From an uncultured Atopobium sp. (GTDB lineage: Bacteria; Actinomycetota; Coriobacteriia; Coriobacteriales; Atopobiaceae), in NCBI GenBank assembly GCA_946647055.1, contig CAMPCT010000006.1:1-25629 (forward strand): DNA of 25,629 nucleotides, written 5' to 3'. The notes beneath the pieces were generated by a model, which was not told the origin of the DNA, ran no database searches, and saw only the letters and a list, made by a program, of their open reading frames with translations. Every line of letters starts with the position of its first letter. Within the stretch, counting starts at the first letter, position 1. This document shows positions 3,369 through 23,874 of the stretch, piece after piece. Position numbers and translations under genes: made by a program.

Positions 3369-4199
3369 TTAGGCCTCGAGCATCGCCTTGATGTTGTTGA
3401 TGGCGCGCTTGGCGTACAGGCGCGGCTCGTTGATGTAGCCGGTGACCAGCTCGATCGTGGCCGTGCGGTCGTAGTGGTAGTAGTTCGCGATCTCCTGCAT
3501 GAGCTCCGGCAGGGGCAGGACGCCCTCGCCCGGCATGACGTGGGAGTCGTCGACGCCGTTGGAGTCGATGATGTGCAGGTGATACAGCTTGTCGCCCAGC
3601 TTGTTGAAGTAGCTCGTGATCTGCTCCTGCTGCTGGAAGGGCGGGACGATGTCGCACATGGCCATGAGGTAGTCGGAGTCGACGTGCTCGAAGAGGTCGA
3701 TGAGGTCGTTGGCACTCTTGAAGACGTTGGACTCCATCGTGGTGAGCGGCTCGATGACGATGCGGACGCCCACGTTCTCGGCATAGGCCGTGAGCTCCTC
3801 GCAGGTGCGGTAGAGCCGGTCGCGGATCTCGGACGGCTTGGTGTCGTATCCGGCATGCGCAGGCGAGATGAGCATGTAGTCGCTGCCCAGCTGCTTGCCG
3901 GCGTCGAGACAGATCTTGAGGTAGCGCACCGCGTCCTCGCGCTGGCGCTCGGAGCCGATCATGAAGTTGTAGGGATAGCCGTTGTGCTCGGGGCACCAGC
4001 CGGTGATGGGCACGCCGTACTTGTCACGCAGGCGCAGGACCTCGTCGATCTCGCCGGCGAGCAGGTCGGGGGCGAAGGCGTGCGGGCGGCCGCCCCACAG
4101 CTCGATGTAGTCGTAGCCAAAGCGTGCGGCGTCCTCGAAGATGTCCTCGAGCGGGTTGCGCTGGTAACCAGAGGTGAACATGCCGATCTTCATTGCCAT
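3369..4199 (-). CDS. frlC: Fructoselysine 3-epimerase-like protein (FrlC)
   Basis: A 276-residue TIM-barrel sugar isomerase/epimerase of the AP-endonuclease-2 fold, the same length as E. coli FrlC. It begins with a signature close to FrlC as I recall it: GMFTSGYQRNP, then ELWGGRPHAFAPDL at residues 33-46, NGYPYN, AHAGY, and later IEPLTTMESNV, HLHIID, MPGEG and VELVTGYINEPRLYA. FrlC interconverts fructoselysine and psicoselysine at C3. Metal ligands of the family (Glu of IEP, Asp of CDI, His of HLHIID, Glu of IELV) are present. I chose ATG 4199 because AAAGGA lies nine bases ahead of it; the upstream ATG at 4208 would overlap that site. It is preceded by a FrlD-like kinase gene, as expected for a ketosamine pathway. 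Confidence 0.92.
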   Translation of the reverse strand: MAMKIGMFTSGYQRNPLEDIFEDAARFGYDYIELWGGRPHAFAPDLLAGEIDEVLRLRDKYGVPITGWCPEHNGYPYNFMIGSERQREDAVRYLKICLDAGKQLGSDYMLISPAHAGYDTKPSEIRDRLYRTCEELTAYAENVGVRIVIEPLTTMESNVFKSANDLIDLFEHVDSDYLMAMCDIVPPFQQQEQITSYFNKLGDKLYHLHIIDSNGVDDSHVMPGEGVLPLPELMQEIANYYHYDRTATIELVTGYINEPRLYAKRAINNIKAMLEA

Positions 4200-4271
4200 G
4201 TCGATCATCCTTTCGTTCGCAACATTCCTGCTGTGATCTCGTGCGCTTTCGCGCGTTGTGCCTAGCCTGGC

Positions 4272-5096
4272 CTACTCGTCAATCACCCATGGTTCGAAGA
4301 CGCCGACGACCTCGGAGGCGACACGAGCGCCGTCGCGCAGGCAACCCGCTATGTCCCTGCCCTTGAGCACGCCCGCCAGGAAGCCCGCGATGAACGAGTC
4401 GCCCGCACCGACGGTGTTGACCACGTTGGGCTGCGGGACGACATTGCCCTCGTAGAAGACCACGCCGTTGTATGCCAGCGAGCCCTCCTCGCCAAAGGTG
4501 GCGACGGCGACCTTCATGCCGTACTCGTTCACCATCCTGCGGAGGAACTCGCGCGGCTCGGGATCATTGCGGCTGCCGATGCCCTTGTACGAGAAGAAGC
4601 CGTAGTCGATGGCGCCACGAGTCGTCTCGAGCATGGCCGGGAGTCGCTCGTCGTTGGAGGTGGCGTAGTCAAAGGCCGTGAGGGCGCCCAGGTCGTGAAT
4701 CTTGCCCATGACGTTCTCGGCCTTGCCCCAGAAGGCGGTGAAGACCAGGTCGTGCTCCGCGGCGAAGCGCACGTCCTCCTCATCGAAGACCATGTCGGCA
4801 AGCACGCCCTCCTCGTACTCGCCGTGGACGCGGTCGTTCTCGTCGAGCGTCATGTAGGTGATGGCGGTCTTGCCCTCCGCGACCTTGAGGTGCGAGAGGT
4901 CCAGGCCCTCCTTGGTGAGGGCGTCGATCATCCACCTACCGTTCTCGTCGGAGCCGGTGGTCGATATGATCGAGACGGGAATGCCCAGCTTGCGCATGTT
5001 GACGCCAGTGTCAACGACGTTGCCTGTGGGATAGCGGCGACCTATGTTGGTGTAGTCGTCGATGCAGTTGTCGCCAATGCCTGCAGCCTTCTTCAC
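4272..5096 (-). CDS. PfkB-family kinase, FrlD-like paralogue
   Basis: A 274-residue PfkB/ribokinase-fold kinase starting at GTG 5096, behind a GGGGAGGG ribosome site. It opens with GIGDNCIDDY and aligns along its length with the FrlD at 6780 (HGEYEEGVLADMVFDEEDVRFAAEHDLV against FGDYIEGVMETFKLSDEDVEFICGQDLF, and FSYKG against FFGLE). The catalytic base is D233 in TVGAGDSF. It differs at the substrate loop, where PTGNVVDTGVNM replaces the usual GGN.VNVAVY, so it may act on a different ketosamine or sugar. It is the first gene of the minus-strand run into frlC and may be its partner kinase. Whether it is a true fructoselysine 6-kinase is uncertain. Confidence 0.88.
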   Translation of the reverse strand: MKKAAGIGDNCIDDYTNIGRRYPTGNVVDTGVNMRKLGIPVSIISTTGSDENGRWMIDALTKEGLDLSHLKVAEGKTAITYMTLDENDRVHGEYEEGVLADMVFDEEDVRFAAEHDLVFTAFWGKAENVMGKIHDLGALTAFDYATSNDERLPAMLETTRGAIDYGFFSYKGIGSRNDPEPREFLRRMVNEYGMKVAVATFGEEGSLAYNGVVFYEGNVVPQPNVVNTVGAGDSFIAGFLAGVLKGRDIAGCLRDGARVASEVVGVFEPWVIDE

Positions 5097-5330
5097 GATG
5101 CCCTCCCCTTCTGCGTCATTCGGCGTGGCGCAATCGGTATGGAAAAGTGCATAACTTATATAGCATCTTATCTGCATCCCGCTCTCTCGACTTCTCCGCG
5201 CCCCCTCTTGTCCCGTCAACGGCAACTTGCAGCCGATGGACGTATGAAGCTCGCGGATGCCCCGCTGATATACTGGGGCTTGTCGCGACGACTCGTACGC
5301 AGGCACCATCGGAGGGGACGGGGGTCCGCA
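5097..5330. promoter_or_regulatory. Divergent intergenic region between FrlD-like kinase and radical SAM gene
   Basis: This 234-base gap must hold both promoters. On the plus strand, TATACT at 5269-5274 with ATGAAG 18 bases before it is a fair -10/-35 pair placed about 60 bases before the GTG at 5331. On the minus side, an AT-rich patch at 5148-5170 (ATAACTTATATAG) is the likely promoter or operator for the kinase operon. An ATCGGTATGG sequence near 5133 recalls the GGTAT element seen elsewhere in the window. Assignments are tentative. Confidence 0.4.
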
Positions 5331-6251: not shown

Positions 6252-6254
6252 CGC

Positions 6255-6581
6255 CTAGGCATTGCCCGCCTCATAGAGCTCGACGAACTCCTCAAGGGGA
6301 CCCACGTGCGTGTACAGGGTGCCGTTCGTCACGTTGAGGATGCGCCAGCGCTCCTTGCCCTTGTGGTCCCCCATGCGCTCGGTCATGCAATCACGTGCGA
6401 AGTCTCGCTGCTTGGGAGCGCACTCCTCCAGGAGGACCTCTATGTCGAGTATCGAGCACCCCTGCTGGAACGCCAGCATCTCCATGGTCGCAATCTGCGT
6501 GTCATCCGTCTCCGACTGGAGGGGATACGAGAACAGGCGCTTCCCCTTGTAGTAGAAACCCTTCCGGTACTCGGTCTTCAT
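6255..6581 (-). CDS. Small protein of unknown function (108 residues)
   Basis: I do not recognise this family. The protein is soluble, with no signal peptide or membrane segment. The N-terminus is basic and aromatic (MKTEYRKGFYYKGKRLFSY), the middle carries ATMEMLAFQQGCSILDIEVLLEECAP, and the C-terminus is acidic. Two or three cysteines are spread through the middle without a metal-binding spacing. A strong AGGAGG site lies six bases ahead of ATG 6581, which supports it being real, and the coding bias is like that of its neighbours. It is transcribed towards the radical SAM gene. Upstream, between 6582 and 6711, the minus strand contains TATGGTATGG near 6648-6660 as a weak promoter candidate. 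Confidence 0.75.
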   Translation of the reverse strand: MKTEYRKGFYYKGKRLFSYPLQSETDDTQIATMEMLAFQQGCSILDIEVLLEECAPKQRDFARDCMTERMGDHKGKERWRILNVTNGTLYTHVGPLEEFVELYEAGNA

Positions 6582-6779: not shown

Positions 6780-7565
6780 ATGAAGGTTGCAGCGGCAGGC
6801 GACAACTGCGTCGATGTCTACGAGAAAGAAGGTCAGAGCTACCCCGGCGGCAATCCCGTCAACGTGGCCGTGTACCTGCGCAGGATGGGCCTCGACGCCT
6901 CGTTCACCAGCGTGGTGGGCGACGACCAGTGGGGCGCACGCATGGCCGAGGCCCTCACCGGCAAGGGCGTCGACATCTCGCACCTGCACGTCGAGCATGG
7001 CGACACCGCCGTCACCAAGGTCGAGATCGTCAACGGCAACCGCGTCTTTGGCGACTACATCGAGGGTGTCATGGAGACCTTCAAGCTCTCCGACGAGGAC
7101 GTCGAGTTCATCTGTGGCCAGGACCTCTTCGTGAGCGGCATCTGGGGCCATTGCGACGACCGCCTCAAGGAGATCCACGACTCCGGCACCCCCGTGGTCT
7201 TCGACTACTCCGACCAGCCGCAGGACCCCATGGTCGACGCAACGCTCGCCTACGTCGACTACGCCTTCTTTGGCCTGGAGAGCGACGACAACGAGGAGGT
7301 TCGCGCCTTCATGGCCGAGAAGCAGGCCAAGGGTCCCAAGGTCGTCATCGTCACCCTGGGCGAGAACGGCAGCCTGGCCTATGACGGCAAGGACTACCAC
7401 AAGGGCGACATCGTGAAGTGCGAGGTCGTCGACACCATGGGTGCCGGAGACTCCTTCATCGCCGGCTTCATCGTGGGCATCCTCGAGGGCCAGACCATCG
7501 ACGAGTGCATGGTCACCGGCGCCAAGTCCTCCGCCGTCACCCTTGGCTACTCCGGCGCGTGGTAA
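6780..7565 (+). CDS. frlD: Fructoselysine 6-kinase (FrlD)
   Basis: A 261-residue PfkB kinase with the same length and nearly the same motif order as E. coli FrlD as I recall it: GDNCVDVY at residues 7-14, GGNPVNVAVY at 23-32, SVVGDD, KGVDISHLHVEHGDTA, GDYIEGVM, IWGH, IVTLGENGSLA and DTMGAGDSFIAGF, ending in SGAW. The catalytic Asp is D224. FrlD phosphorylates fructoselysine at C6 using ATP, making the substrate for the SIS-domain deglycase. ATG 6780 is preceded by GAGAGGAGCGAGAC. It leads a plus-strand group with an SDR dehydrogenase, separated by a large palindrome. This is the best single functional call in the window. Confidence 0.94.
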   Translation: MKVAAAGDNCVDVYEKEGQSYPGGNPVNVAVYLRRMGLDASFTSVVGDDQWGARMAEALTGKGVDISHLHVEHGDTAVTKVEIVNGNRVFGDYIEGVMETFKLSDEDVEFICGQDLFVSGIWGHCDDRLKEIHDSGTPVVFDYSDQPQDPMVDATLAYVDYAFFGLESDDNEEVRAFMAEKQAKGPKVVIVTLGENGSLAYDGKDYHKGDIVKCEVVDTMGAGDSFIAGFIVGILEGQTIDECMVTGAKSSAVTLGYSGAW

Positions 7566-7575
7566 GGTCTTGGGT

Positions 7576-7684: not shown

Positions 7685-8461
7685 ATGGAGCAGCGTTTCA
7701 CCGATCAGGTCGTCATCACCACGGGTGCCGCGGGAGGCATCGGAAAGGCCGTTGCCAAGCGCTTCTACGACGAAGGCGCCAAGGTCGTCATGCTCGACAT
7801 CAAGAAGGAATGGGTCGACGGCGTCATCGAGTCGTTTGGCATGGACCCCGAGCGCGTCATGTCCGCCGGCTTCGACATCACCGACGAGGAGGCCGTCAAG
7901 GCGATCGTCGAGAGCGTGATGGAGCGGTGGGGTCGCATCGACGTCCTCAACAACATCGCCGGCAACGGCGGGGACCAGATGGACATGGAGGATAAGCCCC
8001 TGGGCGAGTGGACGATGGTCTACGACATCAACGTCTTTGGCACCGTGCGCATGATCAAGTACGTCCTGCCCATCATGAAGGCCCAGAAGTATGGCGTCAT
8101 CACCAACACCTCGAGCATCTCGGGCATGTTCGGCTATGCCGGCGAGGCTGCGTACGGCTCGTCCAAGTGGGCGGTCCGCGGCCTCACCAAGAACATCGCC
8201 AACGAGAACGGCGGCAAGACCGGCGTCCGCGTGAACTCCGTGGCGCCCGGCTGGGTCAACACCGCCATGTTCCAGAAGGCGCTCGACGACTACATCGCCC
8301 AGGGCTACGAGGACCCCATGGAGAACGTCACGCTCGGCCCGCTGGGACGTCCCGCCGAGCCGTCCGAGATCGCGGCGGTCTTCGCCTTCCTCGCAAGTGA
8401 CGACGCGGTCATCATCAACGGGTCCAACATCCTCTGCGACGGCGGCATCACGCTGGGATAG
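7685..8461 (+). CDS. Short-chain dehydrogenase/reductase (SDR)
   Basis: A 258-residue classical SDR. The NAD(P)-binding motif TGAAGGIG is at residues 13-20, NNIAG at 89-93, the catalytic Ser is at 143/144 (NTSSISG), and the YxxxK pair is Y157/K161. The C-terminus GSNILCDGGITLG is typical. D38 after the second strand (VVMLDIK) suggests NAD over NADP. The start ATG 7685 has GGAAGGGA upstream; an in-frame ATG at 7634 lies inside the palindrome and is unlikely. Following frlD, it may oxidise or reduce a sugar alcohol or keto-sugar in the pathway, but the substrate cannot be named. Confidence 0.92.
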   Translation: MEQRFTDQVVITTGAAGGIGKAVAKRFYDEGAKVVMLDIKKEWVDGVIESFGMDPERVMSAGFDITDEEAVKAIVESVMERWGRIDVLNNIAGNGGDQMDMEDKPLGEWTMVYDINVFGTVRMIKYVLPIMKAQKYGVITNTSSISGMFGYAGEAAYGSSKWAVRGLTKNIANENGGKTGVRVNSVAPGWVNTAMFQKALDDYIAQGYEDPMENVTLGPLGRPAEPSEIAAVFAFLASDDAVIINGSNILCDGGITLG

Positions 8462-10011: not shown

Positions 10012-11010
10012 CTACAGCTGAGCCATCCAGGCCTCGACGTCCGCCAGCGGCGGGTAGCCCTCGCCCGGACGGTTGGTCATCGTGCCCTCGCGGGTGACCT
10101 TGTAGGCGGCGTACCTGCTCGCCCACTCGACGGCCTCGCGCAGGGGCTTGCCCTCGACGATTCCCTTGGCGGTGGCGGCAAGGAAGCCGTCGCCCGCACC
10201 GATGGTATAGACGGCCTTGACGGGCGTGGCCGCGACCTCGAAGTACTCGTCGCCGTCAAGCACCGCGGAGCCCTTGGACCCGCAGGTCATGATGACGCCC
10301 TTGCACTTGTACTCGGCCTTGACCTGGCGCAGGACCTCCTCGTAGGGGGTGTCGTAGTCCTCGGGCAGACCGCACAGGACACCCGCCTCGGCATCGTTGA
10401 CGACCAGGTAGTCGATGAAGGAGAGGTCGCCCATGGGCTGGTCGGGCAGCGGCGACGCGTTGCACATCGTGAGCATGCCAAACTCGTCCTTGGCGATTTT
10501 GGCGCCGTCGAGGGCCTTCTGGAAGGGCATGCCAAAGCCGGTGATGAAGACCTTGGCCTCCTTCATGGCCTCGATGGCGGCGTGGGTCTCGTCCCAGGTG
10601 AGGGCGCGGCAGGCCGAGTCGCCGTCGACGATGGTGTTGAGGCCGTCGTCGTCGATCATGATGAGGCCCGTGCCGGTGGCCACGGACGTGTCGTAGTACA
10701 TGTACTTGGTGAAGACGCCGGCCTCGGTCATCCAGTCATCGCCCATCTTGCCCCAGGGGTCGTCGCCAACCTTGCCGATGTAGCCGGCCGAGACGCCCAG
10801 ACGACCCAGCGCGACGGAGACCGTGGCACCCTTGCCGCCGTCCTCCTCGACGTGCCAGTCCCAGGCCTCCATGGTCTCGCTGCGCCTGGGGAGCCGGTGC
10901 ACGCGGCAGACCTGGCCAACACCGTGGCTGTTCATAACGATGACGTCGACCGGCCGGGTCTTCTCGATGTCCTTCACGAAGACGGTCTCGGATACGAACT
11001 GCTTGCCCAT
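10012..11010 (-). CDS. Ribokinase-like PfkB sugar kinase
   Basis: A 332-residue PfkB kinase, paralogous to the kinase at 22936. Both carry an unusual NSHGVGQ near the first strand and EDGGKG(A/S)xVxVALGRLG at the substrate loop (here residues 56-72), closer to ribokinase than to FrlD. The catalytic Asp is D274 in TIGAGDGF. Compared with its paralogue it has about 16 extra N-terminal residues; GGGAGG lies eight bases ahead of ATG 11010, which supports that start. It is the last gene of the aldolase/DUF4432/isomerase/kinase run and is separated from the isomerase by a large palindrome. In that setting it may phosphorylate the ketose or keto-acid made by its neighbours (inference). The exact substrate is unknown. 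Confidence 0.9.
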   Translation of the reverse strand: MGKQFVSETVFVKDIEKTRPVDVIVMNSHGVGQVCRVHRLPRRSETMEAWDWHVEEDGGKGATVSVALGRLGVSAGYIGKVGDDPWGKMGDDWMTEAGVFTKYMYYDTSVATGTGLIMIDDDGLNTIVDGDSACRALTWDETHAAIEAMKEAKVFITGFGMPFQKALDGAKIAKDEFGMLTMCNASPLPDQPMGDLSFIDYLVVNDAEAGVLCGLPEDYDTPYEEVLRQVKAEYKCKGVIMTCGSKGSAVLDGDEYFEVAATPVKAVYTIGAGDGFLAATAKGIVEGKPLREAVEWASRYAAYKVTREGTMTNRPGEGYPPLADVEAWMAQL

Positions 11011-11123: not shown

Positions 11124-11963
11124 CTAGTAATCTGCGAGCATCCCGCGGATGACCTCGATGCCGCGCTCAGCCGAGAAGTCCGGCTCGTTGGCATAGCGGC
11201 TGAAGAGCTCGAGGGCCAGGTAGCCGTCATAGCCCACGCGCTTGAGGTACCTTACGATGCGCGGCCAGTCCATGGCACCGTCGCCAGGAATGAGATGGTC
11301 CTCGCAGTCGGGCTCGGCGTCGATGAAGTGAATCTCACGTATCTTGCCCGGCATCTTGTCAAAGTACTCGCTGATGGGCTCGCCGCAGGTAAGCGGGCAC
11401 GCGAGGTCGAGACAGACCTCGAGGGCGCCGGAATCGACGCTGTCGAGCAGCCACTTGCAGTCGTCTGAGCTGCACACGACCTTGCCCTCGAAGGGCGTGA
11501 CCGGCTCGATCATCACCGTGACGTCGGCCTTCTCGGCATGGTCGCAAATCCTCTTGAAGTCCTCGACCACCTGCGCCTTGAGCGCCTCGCGGTCCCAGCC
11601 AAAGCCCGGCATGTTGACGGCAAGCATGACCAGCGGGGCGCCAATCGCCTTGGCGGCGTCGATGGTGGACTTGAAGTACTCCACGGAGAGCTCGTTGTAT
11701 GCCTTGTCCTGGAAGACGAAGCTGTGAGGCGAGCCCGTGTTCTCGGGCACATAGCTCACGATGGGCATCTGGTACTTGTCAACGCACGCGAGGATGCGTG
11801 TGCGGATGCCGGCGACGTCATCCAGGATGTCCGGCGCGTAGCCGTGCGGGCGGAAGCCGCCGATGTCCACGCCGTCATAGCCGTTTGCGGCAGCCGCGGC
11901 AAACGTGCGCTCGATGGGCCAGTTGGAGAAGCCCGTGCTGAAGAGCGATACCTTCATTGCCAT
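11124..11963 (-). CDS. Sugar phosphate isomerase/epimerase, FrlC-like paralogue
   Basis: A 279-residue TIM-barrel protein of the same family as frlC in this window. It shares MAMK(I/V), GYDGVDI, FRPHGYAPDI, IEP(L/V)T, SEYFDKMPGKIREIHFID and ALELFSRYANEP. The signature WGGRPHAFAPD of FrlC is changed to IGGFRPHGYAPD, which suggests a related but different substrate. The metal ligands appear present (Glu in MIEPVT, Asp in CLDLA, His in EIHFID, Glu in LALELF). ATG 11963 has a near-ideal AAGGAGG six bases upstream. It is placed between the DUF4432 and kinase genes and could act on a free or phosphorylated ketose. Confidence 0.9.
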   Translation of the reverse strand: MAMKVSLFSTGFSNWPIERTFAAAAANGYDGVDIGGFRPHGYAPDILDDVAGIRTRILACVDKYQMPIVSYVPENTGSPHSFVFQDKAYNELSVEYFKSTIDAAKAIGAPLVMLAVNMPGFGWDREALKAQVVEDFKRICDHAEKADVTVMIEPVTPFEGKVVCSSDDCKWLLDSVDSGALEVCLDLACPLTCGEPISEYFDKMPGKIREIHFIDAEPDCEDHLIPGDGAMDWPRIVRYLKRVGYDGYLALELFSRYANEPDFSAERGIEVIRGMLADY

Positions 11964-11975: not shown

Positions 11976-12008
11976 TTGTCCAAAAAGGGAGTATCCCCTA
12001 GTGGACAA
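11976..12008. repeat. Small palindrome with GGGGATACTCCC core overlapping a stop codon
   Basis: On the minus strand this reads TTGTCCACTAGGGGATACTC, continuing into CCTTTTTGGACAA: outer arms TTGTCCA/TGGACAA and inner GGGA/TCCC around TAC. It includes the stop codon of the DUF4432 gene (11998-12000) and borders the AAGGAGG site of the next gene (11970-11976). The core matches the elements at 14230-14254 and 25588-25620. Confidence 0.65.
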
Positions 12009-13092
12009 TCGTGTTGATGCGGTTGGCCATCCCCTGTGCCTCGTCGGGCCCCAGATACCCAAAGCGCCAGCGCAACACGTCCACGCCACCCGCCTCGAGC
12101 GTGTTGGCATAGCCGTGCGAGCGCTGGTAGGCGGTGGAGTGGTTGGTGCCGGTCGAGGGCAACGCGATGCCGATGCCGTCCTCGTCGCCCGTGCGGCAGA
12201 ACCAACGCAGGGCCCATGGCGCCTTCTCGAGCTCCCAGCCCACGTAGCAGGCATCGCCCTCGGGCATGACCATCATCGCGTGCGCCCAGCCCTGCTCGTC
12301 CGCGTCGTAGCGGTAGTTGATGCAGAGCTCGGGGTCGTAGGCCTCGCCCTCCTGGCCAAGCGCGTCTGCAAGCGTCGGGTCGTCCAGCAGCGCCTGGGAC
12401 CACGCCTTGATCGCCTCGTCACGCGGGCTGCCGTCGCCTAGGTCCATGGGACTCACCATGATGTGTTCGGCGTCCTTCTTGCAGCTGTAGACGAAGCGCG
12501 ACCCATCCCGCCCAAGCCAGTTCATGTGGCAGAGCCACAGGTACTCGAGCGGGTGGGTCCGGCGGTTCTCGACCGTGGCCTGCATCTCCACCATCGTGGC
12601 GCCCTCGTACAGGCGAAGCTCCGGGGTATAGGCCCAGTGCAGCTCCTGGCTGTTGCGGAACACGTAGGTGCCGCCAATCGCCACGAAGCAGCCGTCCTCG
12701 TCCTCGCCGGCATCGACCCAAGCGTCGCGGTAGGAGGCAAAGGGCAGGACATCGTGGATGGGATACGGGTCCTCGCCGTCGCCGGCGCCGTTGATGTTGT
12801 TGAGGCCGCAATGGTAGAGGAAGCCACCGTAGTTGTCGCCAAACTTGGTGGTGTCCTGCGGCGCCTCGAACATCGACTTCTGCGTCATCGGACGCCCGTC
12901 GAACTCCAGCTCCCAGACCTGCATGCCAAAGTAGGGCAGCACCACCATGGAGCTGCGCGAGTTCTCGACCCTAAGACCGGGGATGCCCGTCTCGTACTTG
13001 AACGCGGTCACCCTGAGCTCGCCCGTGCTCACCAGCTCGAGCGGGCGGTCGGAGAAGAACTCGGGGCGGAAGCGGAAGCGTGTGGTTGCCAT
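11998..13092 (-). CDS. DUF4432-type aldose-epimerase-like protein
   Basis: A 364-residue protein of the galactose-mutarotase-like superfamily, recognisable as DUF4432. Its markers are SSMVVLPYFGMQVWELEFDG near residues 46-66, the YGGFLYHCGLNNI segment near 88-100, ATVENRRTHPLEYLWLCHMNW near 152-172, and a C-terminal GTNHSTAYQRSHGYANTLEAGG. DUF4432 proteins are expected to bind a sugar in a beta-sandwich cleft and may equilibrate anomers or epimerise; few have a proven reaction. ATG 13092 is preceded by AGGGGAGGG, immediately after the stop of the aldolase gene, so the two are coupled. It probably prepares the sugar for the isomerase and kinase downstream (inference). Confidence 0.85.
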   Translation of the reverse strand: MATTRFRFRPEFFSDRPLELVSTGELRVTAFKYETGIPGLRVENSRSSMVVLPYFGMQVWELEFDGRPMTQKSMFEAPQDTTKFGDNYGGFLYHCGLNNINGAGDGEDPYPIHDVLPFASYRDAWVDAGEDEDGCFVAIGGTYVFRNSQELHWAYTPELRLYEGATMVEMQATVENRRTHPLEYLWLCHMNWLGRDGSRFVYSCKKDAEHIMVSPMDLGDGSPRDEAIKAWSQALLDDPTLADALGQEGEAYDPELCINYRYDADEQGWAHAMMVMPEGDACYVGWELEKAPWALRWFCRTGDEDGIGIALPSTGTNHSTAYQRSHGYANTLEAGGVDVLRWRFGYLGPDEAQGMANRINTIVH

Positions 13093-14254: not shown

Positions 14255-15571
14255 TTATTGGGATTCCCACACGATGCGATAGGGCAGGCTGTCGTCCTGG
14301 TAGAAGGTCTCGCGGACGATGGTAGCGCGGACGGCAGGCGCAAGGCCTTCCGAGACGCCGCGAATACGGATGGTTCCCGGGTCAAGCACCATGCAGAAGA
14401 ACGCTATGGCACGCCCCAGGGCGTCGGCATCCTCGGCATCGCGCCAAATCTCGTCGAGCGTACGACCCGGATCGTCCACGCCATCCGCCACGAGGAAGCC
14501 TCCCAGGTCGCCCGCGCCGGGTGCCGTGAGGGCATCACGCCCATCGGCGACAAGCTGTGCCTCGAAATGATCCCGCTCGCGAACGACGACCAGCTCACAG
14601 GCATCGTCGTCACCGGCGCCAAAGGCCTTGGCAAAGCCACGGTGCCCGCGGATGCCGCAGGCGGCAGCGCCCAGGAAGGCCCCCTCGTAGCCCAGCGTCG
14701 TGGCGCGCACCCTTGGTGCGGCGTCCCCGCGAAGGCGACGCAGCTCGGTCAGCAGCGGTCCCTCGTACCAGTCGAAGAGCAGCGAGATCCCACCGCCCAA
14801 GATGGCGGTCGAGAAGCCCAGCACGGTATGTGCGTTTGCTATGGCGCGGCCCAGGTAACGACCCTCGAGGTCAAGCGCTGCCAGCGCCGCGGGCTCGCCC
14901 TCCCGCGCCGCCGCAGCGATCTCGCGCCCGCCCACGGGCTTCCCGTCCACCTTGGCCGGTCCGCCCAGCTCGATGTAGTTCTGTGCCAGGGCAGGACCAC
15001 TCGCATACATCTCGAGCGGCCCCAACTGGTTGCCCGAGAGCGATGGCCTCCCGCCGGGCGTGCAGATGGTGAGACCCATCTCGCCCGAGAGGTAGCGCGC
15101 ACCGTAGAAGAGCTCGCCATCCAGGAAGGTGCCGCCACCCACGCCCGAGCTCACGGTCATGTAGAGGAAGCTGCGCTCTCCGCGCGCCTCGCCAAAAAGG
15201 CTCTCTGCCAGCACACAGGCGTTGCAGTCGTTGTCTCCATAGAAGGGCACGTCGAGCGCGTCGCCCAGCAGCTGACAGATGGGCAGGTTCTGGACGTCAA
15301 GATAGTCGGAGTCGATCCAGATGCCCTCGACGGGGTCGGCAAAGGCCGGAATGGTGATACCACCCGCCACCACGCGAGCCGCCGCATCGGGATTATCGGC
15401 CATGACGTCAGCACAGGCGTCGACCAGCTGGTCGACGATGCCCTGGGGCGTGACGTCGGTCCACTCGCGCCGCTCGCAGCACAGGATGTTGCCGGCGAAG
15501 TCGACGATGCCGGGCATGTACTTTGACCCGCCGATGTCGACGGTGAGGATGGCGGGAATCTGTGCGGTCAT
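14255..15571 (-). CDS. ROK-family protein with lost zinc motif and extra C-terminal ROK-like segment
   Basis: A 438-residue protein whose first 306 residues are a ROK-type sugar kinase: TVDIGGSK at 10-17, the catalytic-type Asp D115 in YGDNDCNA, SSGVGGG at 141-147, and GPLEMYASGPAL. The usual ROK zinc site (GH then CxCGxxGC) is missing: the segment reads GEMGLTICTPGGRPSLSGNQLG. Residues 307-438 are an addition, and the end (LGRAIAFFCMVLDPGTIRIRG) looks like a second copy of the C-terminal half of a ROK domain, following LGRAIANAHTVLGFSTAILGGG in the main domain. It may be a kinase with altered architecture or a sensor. ATG 15571 is preceded by GGAGGAG; it lies downstream of a SIS gene. Confidence 0.85.
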   Translation of the reverse strand: MTAQIPAILTVDIGGSKYMPGIVDFAGNILCCERREWTDVTPQGIVDQLVDACADVMADNPDAAARVVAGGITIPAFADPVEGIWIDSDYLDVQNLPICQLLGDALDVPFYGDNDCNACVLAESLFGEARGERSFLYMTVSSGVGGGTFLDGELFYGARYLSGEMGLTICTPGGRPSLSGNQLGPLEMYASGPALAQNYIELGGPAKVDGKPVGGREIAAAAREGEPAALAALDLEGRYLGRAIANAHTVLGFSTAILGGGISLLFDWYEGPLLTELRRLRGDAAPRVRATTLGYEGAFLGAAACGIRGHRGFAKAFGAGDDDACELVVVRERDHFEAQLVADGRDALTAPGAGDLGGFLVADGVDDPGRTLDEIWRDAEDADALGRAIAFFCMVLDPGTIRIRGVSEGLAPAVRATIVRETFYQDDSLPYRIVWESQ

Positions 15572-15649: not shown

Positions 15650-16753
15650 TCAGTCGGTGTAGGCGGGCTCCATGATGTCATCGAGCGCGGCGACCTTGGG
15701 CTGGGTCAGGTCGATGCCCAGGCGCTCCGCCATGAGAACCGCGATGACCTGCAGCGGGATCAGATATTCGAGCGTGCTCACGAACTCGACGTCGCCCGAG
15801 TGGATGACCAAGGGGTCATCGGCGCGGTCCTGCAGGACGGACTGCACCACCACGCGGTTCCTGCAGTAGGGCTCGATCGCACGGGCCATGAGCCCCATGC
15901 GGTCGCGCTCCGGCCCCGCCTCGGCCGAGAGGAACACGCACATGTCGTCCGCATGCAGCGCACGGAAGGGCCCGTGCAGGCACTCCTCCAGCTCGAAGGC
16001 GTACGTGGGCCGCTCGTGGGTCTCGTAGAACTTGAGCGCCCCCTCCTGGACCGTGCCGTAGTTGGGCCCATAGCCAATGAGGAAGAACTGCGGCGCTGTC
16101 ATGAGACGGTCCGCGTTGGCCTCGAACCACGCGCGGCTGTCGGCGATGGTGGCCTCCACGTTGTCGGGAACGGCAGCCAGCGCGGAGGTGAGGACGTCAT
16201 ATTCGAAGCCGTTGATGCGTCCCATGTCATGCGCCGCCTCGACCATGCTCGTCAGCACCAGGAAGAGCGCCATGGTCTGGTTCTTGGTCGCCGCGATCGA
16301 GCGCTCGGGCGCACCTGGCTTGGGCAACACCACGTCGCACTCGCGGGCCAGCACGCCCGTGGGGTTGAGGGTGGTGCACACCGTGGCCACGCCCAGCTCT
16401 CGGGCACGGCGCGCTGCGTCGACCTGCCCCTTGGAGTGCCCCGTCTCGGCAGGGCACACCAGCAGCACCTCGCGCGGGTCGAGCCTGCCGGACGCGTCGA
16501 AGCCGCCGTGGTTGTGGAAGACGGCGGCCGGGACGGAGTCCGCGTTGACGCCCAACAGGCGCTCTGCGGCAAAGCGCAGGGTCTGCCCCGCATAGTAAGG
16601 CGAGCCGTTGCCCACGAAGAGCAGGCGCGAGAACGTGCGCTCATGGCACAGCCCGGCAAGGCCATGTGCCCATGCGTCCCGCGTCTCCCACAGCTCGCGC
16701 AGCAGCGCGGGCTGCTCCTCGACCTCGACCATGGCCTGCCTGAGATCTGCCAT
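15650..16753 (-). CDS. Double-SIS-domain protein, deglycase/isomerase type (copy 1)
   Basis: A 367-residue protein with two SIS (sugar isomerase) domains and no glutaminase domain. The first SIS shows LLFVGNGSPYYAG (44-56), VLLVCPAETGHSK (96-108) and TTLNPTGVLARECDVVLP; the second shows FFLIGYGPNYGTVQEGALKF (223-242). The catalytic pair known from GlmS and from FrlB/FraB deglycases, a Glu 16 residues before the His of HGP, is E244 and H260. The C-terminus (DDIMEPAYTD) resembles the GlmS/AgaS tail style. It probably cleaves or isomerises a 6-phosphorylated sugar-amine. It heads the minus-strand operon and is divergent from another SIS gene. ATG 16753 has GGGGAGGGG ahead of it. Confidence 0.9.
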   Translation of the reverse strand: MADLRQAMVEVEEQPALLRELWETRDAWAHGLAGLCHERTFSRLLFVGNGSPYYAGQTLRFAAERLLGVNADSVPAAVFHNHGGFDASGRLDPREVLLVCPAETGHSKGQVDAARRARELGVATVCTTLNPTGVLARECDVVLPKPGAPERSIAATKNQTMALFLVLTSMVEAAHDMGRINGFEYDVLTSALAAVPDNVEATIADSRAWFEANADRLMTAPQFFLIGYGPNYGTVQEGALKFYETHERPTYAFELEECLHGPFRALHADDMCVFLSAEAGPERDRMGLMARAIEPYCRNRVVVQSVLQDRADDPLVIHSGDVEFVSTLEYLIPLQVIAVLMAERLGIDLTQPKVAALDDIMEPAYTD

Positions 16754-16884: not shown

Positions 16885-17949
16885 ATGGCAGACATGAACC
16901 CGATCCTTCGCAACATCTACGAGCAGCCCGCGGAACTCGGGCGCGTGCTCGACGACCTCACCGGGCCCAAGCTCGACCAGCTGCGTGATCTCGCCCGCGT
17001 GATGTCACTCGCAGGGGAGATCGTCCTCACCTCGATGGGCAGCGCGTTCTACTCGCTCATGCCCATGTACGAGGAGCTGCGCGAGCGCGGGTACCGCAAC
17101 GTCACCCTCGAGGAGACGGGCGACGTCATCCGCCACCCCGAGCGCATGAGCAGAAACGCCCTCTACGTGCTCATGTCGCGCTCCGGCGAGAGCCGCGAGG
17201 TGGCTGACTTCGCCGTCTGGTGCCGCGAGCATGGCTACACCACCCTCTCGATCACCATGACGCCCGATTCGACCATGGCGACCAACAGCACCTACATGCT
17301 GCACGACATCTCGAGCTACGACGACATCGTCTGCATCAAGGCGTACTCCACGATGGCCCTCACGGGCCTTCTGCTCGTGGAGATGATGGACGGCCGCGAG
17401 CGCCCGTCCGACGGGCTCATCGCCAGGCTCAAAGGTGCCTTCGCTTGGATGGAGGACAACAAGGAGTCCATCCTCTCCCAGCTCGAGGCCATTCCCTTCC
17501 TGGGCACACCCCACGGGTTCTACCTCATCAGCCGCAGCTACGGCATAAACATGATGCGCAGCGCCTCGCTCTGGCTCGAGGAGACCGCCAAGACGCCGGC
17601 CAACATCATGAGCATCGACAACTTCTTCCACGGGCCCATGGAGATCATCCGCAGCCATGCCATCGTCAAGTCGGTGACCTGTCCCGTCCTCTTTGACGTC
17701 CAGCCCGACGCACGCTCCGCCATGATCTGGGGCAAGGTCAACCAGGCGGTCCCCGACTCGCTCTACTTTGGCCCCGTGGGCTCGACCATGCCCGGCGGCG
17801 CCCGCTTCGAGATGCCCGACCTGGGCCTCGAGGGCGGCTGGTCCATGCTCGTCGCAGCCCTCTACTTCCAGCTGCTCTCCTACCAGGTGGCCTTGGCCAA
17901 CGGGATCGAGCCCGGGTTCTTCTATGACGAGGGGTGGATCGTCCTATGA
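16885..17949 (+). CDS. SIS-domain protein, deglycase type (copy 2)
   Basis: A 354-residue protein with two SIS domains. The first shows IVLTSMGSAFYSL (46-58) and LMSRSGESREV (96-106), with SITMTPDSTMA; the second shows FYLISRSYGINMMRSASLWLEE. The acid/base pair is present as E233 and H249 (FFHGP), separated by 16 residues as in GlmS and FrlB. It differs strongly from copies 1 and 3. It begins MADMNPILRNIYEQPAELG, and AAAGGAGG lies five bases ahead of ATG 16885. Its stop codon overlaps the ROK kinase start (ATGA), so the two are translationally coupled, which suggests that the kinase makes the phosphorylated substrate of this enzyme (inference). Confidence 0.9.
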   Translation: MADMNPILRNIYEQPAELGRVLDDLTGPKLDQLRDLARVMSLAGEIVLTSMGSAFYSLMPMYEELRERGYRNVTLEETGDVIRHPERMSRNALYVLMSRSGESREVADFAVWCREHGYTTLSITMTPDSTMATNSTYMLHDISSYDDIVCIKAYSTMALTGLLLVEMMDGRERPSDGLIARLKGAFAWMEDNKESILSQLEAIPFLGTPHGFYLISRSYGINMMRSASLWLEETAKTPANIMSIDNFFHGPMEIIRSHAIVKSVTCPVLFDVQPDARSAMIWGKVNQAVPDSLYFGPVGSTMPGGARFEMPDLGLEGGWSMLVAALYFQLLSYQVALANGIEPGFFYDEGWIVL

Positions 17950-18863
17950 GCAGGCGCGACCTGGTCGCCGGCATCGACATCGGCGGCACCAACGTCAAGG
18001 CGGGCATCGTCGACCTCACGACGAACGAGGTCCTGGCCTCCTGTGACTTCCCCACCGAGCACGACTCCGAGCAGGTCTTCCTCGCCGGGCTCGCACAAGC
18101 GGTCGACAGGCTCTCCGCGCAGGCGGGAACCCCGCAGGCTGCCGGAATCTCCATTGGCAGCTACGTCTTTGCCGACGGCTCCATCGACGGCATGAGCTCG
18201 TTTGTGCCCTTCCTCACCCACGGCTACCCGCTGGCCGAGAAGCTCGCGGCGGCACTCGGCCTCCCCGTGCGCGTGGACAACGACGCCCGCCTCATCTGCC
18301 TGGCGGAGGCGCGCGATGGGGCAGGTCGCGGCTTCTCCCGCGTGCTCACGCTCACGCTCGGAACGGGCGTGGGCGTAGGCCTGTGCGAGGACGGCCATCC
18401 CTTTGGCGGCGAGCCCTTCATCCACCTGGCGGGCCACGTCAAGGTACGCACCGGCGGCGAGCATCCCTGCCTGGACGACGAACCCTGCTACTGCGGCATG
18501 CGGGGCTGCTTCGAGTCGACCTGCTCGGGAACGTCGTTGCAGAAGTACGTGCACGACCAGCTGGGTGAAGACGTCTCCAACAAGGAGGCCTTCGATCGCG
18601 CGGAGGCAGGAGACGAGACAGCGGCAGCCGTGGTCGGCTGGTACCTCGACATGCTTGCACGCGCCCTCAACCAGTACGTCTACCTCTACTGCCCCGACGT
18701 CATCGTGATTGGTGGCGGCGTGGCGAAGGGTTTGAAAGCGTATGAGGAGCGATTGAACGAGTTGCTGGTAGCAGAGGTCTACGAGGGCCAGAGGACCGTC
18801 ATCAAGGTGACCGATCTTAAGGAAGATTCCGGCATCCTGGGTGCCGCATCCCTGTTCGCATGA
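17946..18863 (+). CDS. ROK-family sugar kinase
   Basis: A 305-residue ROK kinase with all hallmarks: the ATP loop GIDIGGTNVKAG at residues 9-20, catalytic D113 in VDNDARL, LGTGVGVGL at 138-146, the zinc-site H164 with C181, C183 and C188 (CYCGMRGC), and PDVIVIGGG near 255. ROK kinases of this size phosphorylate glucose, mannose, N-acetylmannosamine, allose or related sugars. The ATG at 17946 overlaps the stop of the SIS gene by four bases. It is the intact counterpart of the ROK-like protein at 14255. The proximity to SIS genes suggests a 6-kinase for a sugar-amine or for the sugar released from it; not proven. Confidence 0.93.
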   Translation: MSRRDLVAGIDIGGTNVKAGIVDLTTNEVLASCDFPTEHDSEQVFLAGLAQAVDRLSAQAGTPQAAGISIGSYVFADGSIDGMSSFVPFLTHGYPLAEKLAAALGLPVRVDNDARLICLAEARDGAGRGFSRVLTLTLGTGVGVGLCEDGHPFGGEPFIHLAGHVKVRTGGEHPCLDDEPCYCGMRGCFESTCSGTSLQKYVHDQLGEDVSNKEAFDRAEAGDETAAAVVGWYLDMLARALNQYVYLYCPDVIVIGGGVAKGLKAYEERLNELLVAEVYEGQRTVIKVTDLKEDSGILGAASLFA

Positions 18864-18982: not shown

Positions 18983-20062
18983 ATGTCGAAGCCCACCATG
19001 GTCGATTACGTCCGCGAGACCCCGGCAGTCGTCAACGGCCAGATCAAACACGACTACACCAAGCCCCTTGTCGACGCCTTCCTCGCAGGAAGCTACTCCC
19101 ACGTGCGCATCGTTGCCTGTGGAAGTTCGCGCAACGCCTCGCTCATCGCCCGTCCCTATCTGCGGCGCATCCTGGGCCGCGAGGTCCTGGTGACCGAGCC
19201 CTACACCTTCTGCACCTACGAACACGAGCTGCCCGAGGACGAGTTCTGCTTCGTCGTCTCGCAGAGCGGCTACTCGACCAACGCCCTTGCCGCCCTCGCG
19301 ACCATCCGAGAGGCGGGACGCATCGCAATCGGCGTGACGGGCGATCCCGAAAGCGACTTCCGTGAGGCAGCCGACGTGCTCGTGGCCTACGGTGTGGGCG
19401 AGGAGCAGGTGGGCTACGTCACCAAGGGTGTCACCTCGTTCGCCACCTTCCTCATGCTCTTTGGCGCTCAGGTCGCAGCCCGCGAGGGAAGGCTCGACCT
19501 CTGCCACATGCGCGCCGACGTCCGCACGATGCTCGAGCAGTTCGAGGCAGTCGAGGCGCAGGTCCCCGCCCTCATCGAGCGCCGATACAAGGAGCTCTCA
19601 AGCATGGAGCGCATCTTCCTGGTTGGCGCCGGCACAAACTACGGCATCGCCTGCGAAGGCGCGCTCAAGTTCGCCGAGTGCCTGCAGGTTCCCGCCCAGG
19701 CCCTCGAGCTCGAGGAGTACCTGCACGGCCCCAACCTGCAGCTCTCCCCCGACTACACGATCTTCCTCATCGCCGTGGGCGAGCGCTCGTGGGCACGGAC
19801 CAGGGAGATCCTCTCCGCGACACGTCTCGTGACCGACCGCGTCTTCGTGATCACCGACTGTCCCGACCTGGAGGCAGACATCCGCCTCGAACCCCGTGGA
19901 GACGAGCTCATTGCCCCGGTCGCCGCCCTGCCCCTCTTCCAGATGGCCGCCTGGCAGCTCACCGAGGACAAGCACCTCTGGCACAAGCACCCGCTCGTGG
20001 CGCGGTTTGACGCCGCCCTCTCCGGAAAGTCAGAGAACTACGTGGACAAGGAGGTGCTGTAG
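18983..20062 (+). CDS. SIS-domain protein, sugar-amine 6-phosphate deglycase type (copy 3)
   Basis: A 359-residue two-SIS-domain protein. It starts MSKPTMVDYVRETPAVV and contains VRIVACGSSRNAS (41-53), FVVSQSGYSTNALAAL (90-105), IGVTGDPESDFREAADVLVAYGVGEEQVGYVTKGVTS, then FLVGAGTNYGIACEGALKFAE and EEYLHGPNLQL. The catalytic pair is E232 and H248, 16 apart. The overall pattern is like the GfrF/GfrE deglycases of the Salmonella gfr locus as I remember them; I could not check this. Such enzymes split glucosamine- or fructosamine-6-phosphates of lysine into sugar phosphate and free lysine. AAGGAG lies ahead of ATG 18983. It directly precedes the frlA permease gene. Confidence 0.91.
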   Translation: MSKPTMVDYVRETPAVVNGQIKHDYTKPLVDAFLAGSYSHVRIVACGSSRNASLIARPYLRRILGREVLVTEPYTFCTYEHELPEDEFCFVVSQSGYSTNALAALATIREAGRIAIGVTGDPESDFREAADVLVAYGVGEEQVGYVTKGVTSFATFLMLFGAQVAAREGRLDLCHMRADVRTMLEQFEAVEAQVPALIERRYKELSSMERIFLVGAGTNYGIACEGALKFAECLQVPAQALELEEYLHGPNLQLSPDYTIFLIAVGERSWARTREILSATRLVTDRVFVITDCPDLEADIRLEPRGDELIAPVAALPLFQMAAWQLTEDKHLWHKHPLVARFDAALSGKSENYVDKEVL

Positions 20063-21758
<1,696 letters not shown>

Positions 21759-21838: not shown

Positions 21839-21911
21839 TCTATGCTAGACAGGGAAGCAATGTCTCACCGGGTGACCGCCGTCACCCACAAGCAGAAGGG
21901 AGGCGAGGCCC

Positions 21912-22805
21912 ATGCTCCAGAACCGCCTCACCACCAGCGAAGTCCTCGAGTGGTGCTCCATCCCCTGGCAGGACCTCAAGGACTACGACCTCAAGACCAA
22001 GCTCGCCGTCTACCGTGAGAAGCGCGACATGATGGTCGCCATCGGCAACATGATGGCCGAGGAGGTCATCGCCAACAACGAGGCCGGCCTGCCCACCAAA
22101 TGGGTCCTGCCCGCTGGCCCCACCGACGAGTACGACATCTTCACGCGCCGTGTCAACGAGGAGCGCATCGACTGCACCAACCTGTGGGTCTTCCACATGG
22201 ACGAGTTCCTCGACTGGCAGGGCCGCCCCTACCCCGTGGCCGACACCTACGAGAGCCTCGAGGGCACCATGCTGGCCTGCTTCTACGACAAGATCGACGA
22301 GGAGCTGCGCCCACCCGAGGACCATCGCATCTGGCCGCGCATCTACGACCTTGACGCCGCCGATGCCAAGTGCGACGAGCTGGGCGGCATCGACACCGTG
22401 TGGGCTGGCATCGGCGCCACGGGCCTCGTGGCCTTCAACGAGGCGCCCCGCAGCTTCTGCCAGCACCTCACCGTCGAGGAGTACGCTGACTCCAAGACCC
22501 ACATCGGCGTCCTCAACGACGACACCATGGTCGCCCTCTCCGAGCGCTCCTTCGGTGGCTGCCTCGACCGCGTCCCGCCCATGTACATCACCATCGGCTT
22601 CCACATCATCTGCTCGGCCAAGCGCGCCGTCTACATGGTGGCCACGGGCGACTGGAAGAAGACGGTCTGCCGCATCCTGCTCATGAGCGAGCCCACCATC
22701 GAGTACCCGGTCACCATCCTGCCCAAGTACATTCCCGACGTCACCCTCATGACCAACGAGTACACCATCGACCATCCCCTCTCCCACGAGATCCGGGGTT
22801 GGTAG
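21912..22805 (+). CDS. NagB-family (glucosamine-6-phosphate isomerase-like) protein lacking ring-opening residues
   Basis: A 297-residue protein of the glucosamine-6-phosphate deaminase/6-phosphogluconolactonase superfamily. WVLPAGPTDEY (64-74) is the phosphate loop, and the acid D97 in FHMDEF corresponds to the NagB enolisation Asp72. The GIGATGLVAFNE segment (166-177) replaces NagB's GVGNDGHIAFNE: Asp141 becomes T170 and His143 becomes L172, while Glu148 is kept as E177. In NagB, Asp141, His143 and Glu148 open the sugar ring, so this protein probably works on an already open or different substrate. The start at 21912 follows GGGAGGCGAGG. It lies after the FrlA terminator and before a ribokinase-like gene. 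Confidence 0.88.
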   Translation: MLQNRLTTSEVLEWCSIPWQDLKDYDLKTKLAVYREKRDMMVAIGNMMAEEVIANNEAGLPTKWVLPAGPTDEYDIFTRRVNEERIDCTNLWVFHMDEFLDWQGRPYPVADTYESLEGTMLACFYDKIDEELRPPEDHRIWPRIYDLDAADAKCDELGGIDTVWAGIGATGLVAFNEAPRSFCQHLTVEEYADSKTHIGVLNDDTMVALSERSFGGCLDRVPPMYITIGFHIICSAKRAVYMVATGDWKKTVCRILLMSEPTIEYPVTILPKYIPDVTLMTNEYTIDHPLSHEIRGW

Positions 22806-22822
22806 GCACATCCTGACCGTTG

Positions 22823-22900
22823 GATGGCGTTTGGTGATACGCTCCCCATCCTCGCCGAAACCCACGGCTGCGGACGGTCGCGCATCTCCAAGCGCCATCC
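22823..22900. repeat. Extragenic palindrome, 13-base arms
   Basis: GGATGGCGTTTGG at 22823-22835 pairs at 12 of 13 positions with CCAAGCGCCATCC at 22888-22900. The interior contains GATACGCTCCCC, similar to the GGGGATACTCCCC core. It fills most of the gap between the NagB-like and kinase genes. Confidence 0.6.
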
Positions 22901-22935
22901 CTCGCTGAACTCAACTCTTCTGAAGGAGCAAACAC

Positions 22936-23874
22936 ATGGCAAAGAAGATGGACGTGGTCGTCCTCAACTCGCATGGCGTGGGCCAGTACGCCTACTGCGA
23001 CCACATGCCCGTATGGGGCGAGACCCTGCCCGTCAAGAACTGGCACGTGGCAGAGGACGGCGGCAAGGGCTCCAACGTCACCGTCGCCCTGGGGCGTCTG
23101 GGCCTCAAGGTGGCCTATATCGGCAAGGTCGGCAACGACCCCTGGGGTGACCTCGGTGACAAGTGGATGACCGACGCCGGCGCCGACACCACCTACCTCT
23201 ACCGAACCGACGAGGTCTCCACCGGCACGGGCCTCATCCTCATTGGCCCCGACGGCCGCAACACCGTCATCGACGGCGACTCCTCGTCGGTCAAGCTCAC
23301 GGTCGAGGAGGTCGAGGCCGCGCTCGACGACATGGCCGAGTCCTCGTACTTCGTGACCGGCTTCGAGGTGCCCCAGCACGTCTCCCAGGAAGGTGCCAAG
23401 TACGCCAAGAAGCTCGGCATGACCGTGGCGCTCAACCCGTCTCCGCTTCCCGAGGAACCCATGGGAGAGCTCGACTACGTCGACTATCTCTTCATCAACG
23501 AGGTCGAGGGCCGCTATATCGAAGGCCTCGCCGAGGACGATCCGCTCGACGCCGAGTCGCTGGCGCGCAAGGTGCGCGACACCTACCACGTGGGCAACGT
23601 CGTCATGACACTGGGTGGTGACGGAGCCTGCGCGCTCACAGCCGATGGCACGTTCTTCACCGTCGATCCCGTGCACGTGGAGAAGGTCGTCAACACCGCC
23701 GGTGCTGGCGACGGCTTCATGGCCGCCACCGTGTATGGGCTGGTCCGCGGCAAGTCGTTGCACGACGCCATGGAGTGGGCGGCCAAGTACGCCGCACTCT
23801 CCGTCACCATCGATGGAACCATCCCTGCCTACCGCCCGCTCGACGAGGTGGAGGCCTTCATCGCGAGCCTATAG
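22936..23874 (+). CDS. Ribokinase-like PfkB sugar kinase (second copy)
   Basis: A 312-residue PfkB kinase. It shares VVVLNSHGVGQ (residues 7-17) and WHVAEDGGKGSNVTVALGRLG (36-56) with the kinase at 10012, so the two are paralogues of one subfamily. The catalytic Asp is D259 in NTAGAGDGF. Other landmarks are STGTGLILIGPDGRNTVI (96-113) and NPSPLPEEP (167-175). AAGGAG is seven bases ahead of ATG 22936. It follows the NagB-like gene and precedes a strong terminator, so it is the last gene of its transcript. It may phosphorylate the product of a nearby deglycase or isomerase. The substrate is not identifiable, but NGGKGSN-type loops favour a pentose or hexose over a fructosamine. Confidence 0.92.
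   Translation: MAKKMDVVVLNSHGVGQYAYCDHMPVWGETLPVKNWHVAEDGGKGSNVTVALGRLGLKVAYIGKVGNDPWGDLGDKWMTDAGADTTYLYRTDEVSTGTGLILIGPDGRNTVIDGDSSSVKLTVEEVEAALDDMAESSYFVTGFEVPQHVSQEGAKYAKKLGMTVALNPSPLPEEPMGELDYVDYLFINEVEGRYIEGLAEDDPLDAESLARKVRDTYHVGNVVMTLGGDGACALTADGTFFTVDPVHVEKVVNTAGAGDGFMAATVYGLVRGKSLHDAMEWAAKYAALSVTIDGTIPAYRPLDEVEAFIASL

Follow-up and report, generated by a model that had tools for sequence, protein, structure and literature searches.

A stretch of 25,629 bases (63.9% G+C) of contig CAMPCT010000006.1, from an Olsenella-like Atopobiaceae gut bacterium and here called the window, holds genes of the fructoselysine (frl) pathway among many related genes, and raises the question of whether all of these form one system for glycated amines. 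A preliminary description had seen in it an expanded fructosamine island with paralogues at every step. The island (approximately 25 kb) is a real, modular variant of frl built around the fructoselysine pathway. On balance, the whole appears to be a modular catabolic island for glycated amines (fructosamines), composed of an frl core and attached sets of genes; confidence was higher for the core and lower for the attached sets.

Profile and Pfam scans of the 25 accepted genes found FrlC, two FrlD-type kinases, an FrlA-like permease and a second FrlC-like epimerase, together with two ribokinase-like PfkB kinases, two ROK, three SIS and one NagB-like protein, a DapA-family protein and a DUF4432 protein. 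Every paralogue listed in the preliminary description was found by curated models or Pfam. FrlA, FrlC and FrlD had also been called recognisable there; FrlC1 and both FrlDs exceeded their curated cut-offs, and the permease had FrlA as its best model but reached only 335 of 800 bits. The left flank consists of the end of an FGGY kinase, two GntR/UTRA regulators, YjbQ and an Amidohydro_2 enzyme, the right flank of an Amidohydro_3 enzyme, and the operons are divided between both strands. The core genes and the right-flank hydrolase are:

400..1131, minus strand: GntR/UTRA regulator a, GntRa (Pfam; 28.6% identity to E. coli FrlR)
1128..1934, minus strand: GntR/UTRA regulator b, GntRb (Pfam; 26.8% identity to FrlR)
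2023..2451, minus strand: YjbQ (UPF0047; TIGR00149, 106.6 bits, cut-off 67.75)
2463..3314, minus strand: Amidohydro_2 hydrolase, AmiH2 (PF04909, 82.4 bits)
3369..4208, minus strand: fructoselysine 3-epimerase, FrlC1 (NF007360, 446.5 bits, cut-off 305)
4272..5096, minus strand: FrlD1, divergent FrlD subfamily with TGN, VD, NTVGAGD and EPW (NF007321, 329.6 bits, cut-off 247)
6780..7565, plus strand: FrlD2, classical FrlD subfamily with GGN, VN, DTMGAGD and GAW (NF007321, 371.4 bits, cut-off 247)
20346..21758, plus strand: FrlA-like APC permease (NF008466 as best family, 335 bits, below the cut-off of 800)
24036..25577, plus strand: Amidohydro_3 hydrolase, AmiH3 (PF07969, 125.7 bits; 6/8 islands of relatives)

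With tblastn (limits of 38% identity and 55% coverage), eight further islands were mapped, each in a different genome of the family. The eight-gene core (GntRa, GntRb, YjbQ, AmiH2, FrlC1, FrlD1, FrlD2 and permease) was present in 8/8 islands, with core genes 49-96% identical despite rearrangement, and the mapped genes lay within 17-28 kb. The expanded island of frl type first described, with its single FrlA-like permease, was conserved through rearrangement in relatives. Counts of islands and genomes are not independent events, because one family supplied all the genomes and G050 is a near-duplicate of G052.

FrlC1 was 51.5% identical to E. coli FrlC. Of 396 class genomes sampled, eight had FrlC over its cut-off, and these were the eight with mapped islands; 0/14 control genomes had it. 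No control genome, B. subtilis included, passed the FrlD or the FrlB cut-off, and both cut-offs are therefore strict.

FrlD1 and FrlD2 were 35.8% and 43.6% identical to E. coli FrlD, respectively. In an alignment that omitted L108 and the ribokinase-like rows, FrlD2 kept the E. coli signature (GGN, VN, DTMGAGD and the GAW end) in 10/10 rows; FrlD1 had TGN, VD, NT(V/I)GAGD and EPW in 9/9 rows and did not carry the E. coli-type signature. The TGN.VD signature recurred in 116 of the best 120 of 810 database relatives of FrlD1. A name given by the source was attached to 11 of these best 120, and 10 of the names read fructoselysine 6-kinase, seven of them from named Bacillota. The NCBIfam fructoselysine 6-kinase equivalog takes in two subfamilies whose motifs close to the sugar site differ (P0231-P0350). 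Both FrlDs grouped with E. coli FrlD and not with the ribokinase-like kinases, with some joins between long branches, and the place of E. coli FrlD among the FrlDs was not settled by the tree. Among 140 family genomes searched, the divergent pair lay on a single contig in 12 of the 18 with FrlD over the cut-off. By their motifs, FrlD1 and FrlD2 belong to separate subfamilies that are retained together, a pairing newly described here, and the residue changes suggest that they may differ in substrate.

A second type of fructosamine-like locus was observed in the same family (L051, L052, L053 and L054), with YjbQ, AmiH2, two FrlD-type kinases, one or two FrlC-like barrels and an FrlB-like SIS protein (92-113 bits at the loci; 93 and 114 bits for two scanned proteins). 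One of its kinases grouped with FrlD1 (100/99), and the other was a further FrlD-type kinase with GGN or GGQ. Since these loci carry a kinase pair too, the two-kinase design is probably old. AmiH3 was present in three of the four (L052-L054), a DcuC/YfcC-family permease in L054 and an M20 peptidase in L051. In the window, a radical SAM gene and an orphan of 108 amino acids stand between FrlD1 and FrlD2 (5331-6581); the island contained neither of them in 8/8 mapped relatives, where FrlD1 and FrlD2 adjoin head to head.

Strong YjbQ matches (100 bits or more) numbered 18, in 17/140 family genomes. An FrlD-type gene lay within 2 kb of 16 of them (three of those genes being under the FrlD cut-off), and the remaining two were on other contigs of genomes that have FrlD too. 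None of a weaker YjbQ class (up to approximately 84 bits) lay within 30 kb of a listed FrlD match. The placement of strong YjbQ copies beside FrlD-type genes is a newly noted association.

The permease was 38% identical to E. coli FrlA, and family scans matched no transporter family besides this APC permease among the 25 window genes. With the FrlB model (NF008481, cut-off 430), SIS3 of the window reached 25.6 bits, and SIS1 and SIS2 gave no match up to E 1e-3; the cut-off was passed by 0/140 family genomes. A block with an FrlB-like SIS protein (SIS4) and a third FrlC-like barrel was present in 7/8 islands of relatives, with a second SDR protein in 6/8, and stood beside the permease in six islands and beyond RbsKb in G001. 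FrlB was the best model for the two SIS4 proteins scanned, at 67 and 71 bits, well under the cut-off. In G002, an FrlB-like SIS gene lay approximately 16 kb from AmiH3, and the window ends after AmiH3. Because of these genes near the islands of relatives, the lack of FrlB in the window is not evidence of its absence from the genome.

The motif TGGTATAA occurred three times in the window, always in an intergenic region: ahead of FrlD2 (6715), of the DapA operon (14136) and of AmiH3 (24004). It was present in 5 of 13 scanned loci of relatives and was not found in the other eight. As a shared operator motif it was set aside, and the copies were taken as promoters because of their likeness to an extended -10 element.

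Around the core, the relatives carried three sets of genes whose order and strand varied among islands and which were present all or none. The gene contents, linkage and active-site motifs reported for them were observed directly. SIS2, ROK2 and SIS3 occurred together in 7/8 islands and were all absent in G041:

16885..17949, plus strand: SIS2, candidate deglycase (PF01380; Glu233/His249 invariant in 29 rows)
17946..18863, plus strand: ROK2, kinase with zinc motif (PF00480, 166.9 bits; DND and CYCGMRGCFE)
18983..20062, plus strand: SIS3 (PF01380; Glu232/His248)

RbsKa, the DapA-like protein, the NagB-like protein and RbsKb shared the same 6/8 islands and were absent in G050 and G052:

10012..11010, minus strand: ribokinase-like kinase RbsKa (PF00294, 149 bits; with DapA-like)
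13105..14085, minus strand: DapA-family class I aldolase-like protein (PF00701, 112.9 bits; GFKDAS at 164, YN at 138)
21912..22805, plus strand: NagB-fold protein without catalytic His143 (structural match over the domain)
22936..23874, plus strand: ribokinase-like kinase RbsKb (PF00294, 162 bits; with NagB-like)

FrlC2, DUF4432, SIS1 and ROK1 shared the same 4/8 islands, with ROK1 in G036 and G002 only 39% identical, barely above the 38% limit:

11124..11963, minus strand: FrlC2, second FrlC-like epimerase (NF007360 as best model, 205.1 bits, under the cut-off of 305)
11998..13092, minus strand: DUF4432 protein, aldose-mutarotase-like (PF14486, 51.8 bits)
14255..15571, minus strand: ROK1, kinase-like protein of 438 amino acids (PF00480, 133.7 bits; DND present, no CxCGxxGCxE)
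15650..16753, minus strand: SIS1 (PF01380; Glu244/His260 pair)

In the compact islands G050 and G052, SIS2 was directly downstream of FrlD2, and in G041 the permease, NagB-like, RbsKb, DapA-like and RbsKa genes were consecutive on one strand. Across the 140 family genomes, orthologues of FrlC2 (73% or more; 5 genomes), SIS1 (50% or more; the same 5), the DapA-like protein (9), the NagB-like protein (73% or more; 10) and SIS2 (11) were all confined to the 18 with FrlD over the cut-off. RbsK, ROK and DUF4432 genes were mapped in the islands, and in fragmented genomes (e.g., G004) they lay on separate contigs. In public genomes, SIS2 matched five loci at 86-89% identity (sheep jejunum Atopobiaceae, RUG002, RUG14037, Olsenella SIG37 and a Coriobacteriales bin), and the NagB-like protein was 99% identical to that of Olsenella SIG37 over 244 residues; these matches mark the host as an uncultured Olsenella-like member of the Atopobiaceae. 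Between relatives of SIS2 (110 clusters) and of the NagB-like protein (best 120 of 394), the length of the longest contig coincided exactly in eight cases (>3 kb), as compared with 0.23 expected; FrlD1 relatives (best 120 of 810) had one longest-contig size in common with the NagB-like protein (36370) and none with SIS2.

The relationships of the paralogues were assessed with three trees, which left out proteins shorter than 75% of query length and in all of which several long branches and joins between them were flagged (L108 being a very long row). FrlC2 joined FrlC1 and E. coli FrlC (100/99), separately from the 16 other FrlC-like barrels in the sample. RbsKa and RbsKb scored 65.3 and 60.0 bits, respectively, with the FrlD model NF007321 (cut-off 247), and were ruled out as FrlD paralogues by these scores and by their tree distance from FrlD (branch of 3.98). 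SIS1, SIS2 and SIS3 formed separate clades, none with E. coli FrlB. Identities between window paralogues were 32% for FrlC, 40% for FrlD, 48% for RbsK, 28% for ROK and 19-30% for SIS proteins, values that mark the paralogues as old relatives, not recent copies.

SIS1, SIS2 and SIS3 all have a Glu/His pair 16 residues apart, before HGP, which in E. coli FrlB is 233/249. A catalytic role is ascribed to this pair; GlmS has it as well, and it is therefore not specific to an FrlB-like mechanism. Tree, fold and profile (GlmS 107 bits, 2a3n 59, 3eua 52) ruled out SIS2 as an FrlB orthologue, and it is a candidate that may work like FrlB.

The NagB-like protein reached 52.5 bits with the curated NagB model, under the cut-off of 236.9 for the deaminase. 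Aligned with E. coli NagB, it had Asp72 and Glu148 and had lost His143; in alignment A2, Leu stood at the His143 position in 25/26 rows, with His only in L067. As read from these alignments, the loss of the NagB catalytic histidine is a new observation. A NagB-like paralogue with 51% identity (L079, G004:C101) stood beside a ribokinase-like kinase, as a second NagB-like/RbsK pair in G004. A different NagB-like protein was approximately 3-4.5 kb from FrlB-like and FrlD-like genes in G090:C1:237735-243455 and G102:C4:118481-124550, and the G102 copy (L067) retains the catalytic His.

A sign named earlier as counting against the proposal, that the paralogues group with unrelated sugar families in trees, did not hold for FrlC2, which fell with FrlC, or for both FrlDs, which fell with FrlD, subject to the long-branch warning. 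Judged by sequence, the FrlD and FrlB families do not include the ribokinase-like, SIS and NagB-like proteins, and the claim of paralogues at every step, taken as copies of the frl enzymes, found no support: the ribokinase-like kinases were far from FrlD, SIS1-3 were not with FrlB, and the NagB-like protein was without His143.

From these families and their positions, we infer the substrates, order of steps and regulation as follows. The FrlA-like permease would import glycated amines, and FrlC1 would interconvert C3 epimers (psicose- and fructose-amines). The sugar would be phosphorylated at C6 by FrlD2, and by FrlD1 for a different glycated substrate. A SIS-type deglycase (SIS2 in the window and/or the FrlB-like SIS4 of relatives) would then cleave the phosphate to hexose 6-phosphate and the free amine. 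The sets RbsKa/DapA/NagB-like/RbsKb and FrlC2/DUF4432/SIS1/ROK1 would add further classes of sugar-amines through the same permease, under regulation by the GntR/UTRA proteins.

Alternatively, the fructosamine pathway would be limited to FrlC1, FrlD1, FrlD2, the permease and the FrlB-like SIS4, and the RbsK/DapA/NagB-like and FrlC2/DUF4432/SIS1/ROK1 sets would degrade other sugars or sugar acids and be parked alongside. The ribokinase-like kinases scored best as ribokinase (under its cut-off) and not as FrlD, from which they were distant in the tree, the sets could be missing while the core remained (G050 and G052), and the DapA and DUF4432 families are not known to have a role with glycated amines. 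However, orthologues of those set members searched genome-wide were confined to genomes with FrlD over the cut-off, and SIS1 and FrlC2 shared one group of five; no second transporter family was matched among the window genes; and the RbsK/DapA/NagB-like set was in a row with the permease in G041. This explanation was considered unlikely.

Parallel branches for Amadori and Heyns products were judged less probable still: FrlD-type kinases and a SIS deglycase would serve ketosamines, and ROK kinases with a SIS or NagB-fold enzyme would serve aldosamines, e.g., glucoselysine. Glucosamine-type sugars are substrates of the ROK and NagB families, and because Heyns products such as glucoselysine are N-substituted glucosamines this assignment is attractive. 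ROK2 was kept with SIS2 and SIS3 (7/8 islands) and ROK1 with SIS1 (4/8), and the NagB-fold enzyme has lost His143 while retaining Asp72 and Glu148, a pattern that a change of substrate could account for. However, no protein closely related to the known glucoselysine-6-phosphate deglycase was seen, no search by that enzyme's own sequence having been made, and in Salmonella phosphorylation is done by a phosphotransferase system (PTS), according to the available part of PMC12675984. As an analogy from family chemistry, a role of the ROK kinases and of the NagB-fold enzyme with Heyns products is doubtful. Decay of redundant paralogues in a drifting assembly, with which the differing presence of sets between islands and the window-only genes between FrlD1 and FrlD2 would agree, is very improbable given 25/25 open frames (with the FGGY frame truncated at the edge of the window), intact motifs in the examined kinases, ROK, SIS and DapA-like proteins, and the identities of the core genes in relatives.

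The favoured reading, an frl core with attached sets for glycated amines, places the island near several known systems. Like frlABCDR of E. coli (NC_000913; fructoselysine/psicoselysine), it has an FrlC orthologue, FrlD, an FrlA-like permease and GntR/UTRA regulators (27-29% identity to FrlR). It differs from E. coli frl in that it has two FrlD subfamilies, lacks FrlB within the window, divides its operons between both strands and adds YjbQ, two amidohydrolases, SIS1-3, ROK, RbsK, DapA-like, NagB-like and DUF4432 proteins and FrlC2. The genes of Salmonella fra include a Dcu-type permease, and the second-type locus L054, with its DcuC-family permease, resembles fra more than the island does. 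The island shares with fra (fructose-asparagine; PMC9609667, in the part available) an FrlD-like kinase and a SIS protein, and differs in its APC permease and in that no asparaginase family was matched among the 25 window genes.

Salmonella gfrABCDEF (PTS, glucoselysine/fructoselysine) likewise has more than one sugar-phosphate deglycase-type protein per locus, in the accessible portion of PMC12675984. Unlike in gfr, no PTS family was matched among the 25 window genes, so that the mannose-family PTS that marks gfr was not found, and SIS2 was nearer GlmS than 2a3n/8glr by profile and fold. That source, in the same portion, assigns the substrates of GfrE and GfrF oppositely in text and legend, and the naming was therefore not relied on. 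Variable presence in a gut bacterium is shared with the fructoselysine operon of Faecalibacterium prausnitzii, which is PTS-based with seven genes (PMC12136445, as excerpted). Intestinimonas AF211 has a fructoselysine kinase and a fructosamine deglycase, and differs in its ATP-binding cassette importer and in that no such modules are described in the available part of PMC4697335. Among the papers listed on fructoselysine, Amadori and glucoselysine loci, frl genes, Collinsella, Olsenella and Atopobiaceae, judged by titles and abstract openings, none described this architecture, which appears to be a previously undescribed variant of the frl kind; a fructoselysine study on Collinsella exists outside those listings.

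Two further window genes were:

2..340, minus strand: FGGY sugar kinase, N-terminal part, running off the window (PF00370, 48.3 bits)
7685..8461, plus strand: SDR oxidoreductase (PF13561; 2/8 mapped islands)

One full-length relative of the FGGY kinase was scanned, with xylulokinase as best model, under its cut-off. A lipoprotein-like gene of 415 amino acids (8601-9848) had leucine-rich-looking stretches by eye and no Pfam match, and was absent from the islands of 8/8 relatives. Long intergenic inverted repeats at 11026-11111 (39-nucleotide arms, 100% complementary, with 8-nucleotide spacing), 1952-2022 and 7576-7665 may be repeat elements or terminators. A search of the window for RNA families and tRNAs found none.

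In the broadest form of the proposal, one FrlA-type permease would feed a PTS-free system for Amadori and Heyns products, in which ketosamines would be handled by the two FrlD subfamilies and aldosamines by the ROK kinases, the His-less NagB-fold enzyme would be a third kind of deglycase, and YjbQ and both amidohydrolases would be dedicated glycated-amine enzymes. We regard this as speculative and improbable as a whole; if YjbQ and the amidohydrolases were so dedicated, it would provide a physiological context for UPF0047, a widespread family of unclear role. The linkage of YjbQ to FrlD-type kinases is a concrete lead on the function of that family. The label fructoselysine 6-kinase covers two subfamilies that differ in residues near the sugar site, and genome-based predictions of fructoselysine use may therefore fail for one of the two. 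Heated food and feed commonly contain glycated amino acids. Their use by this bacterium is likely from its gene content, and the use of several glycated substrates is plausible. If the modules act as their linkage suggests, this would be, to our knowledge, the most elaborate known locus for glycated amino acids, with an assignment for every gene that can be put to the test. Its attachable enzyme modules probably allow the bacterium to eat more kinds of sugar-damaged amino compounds.

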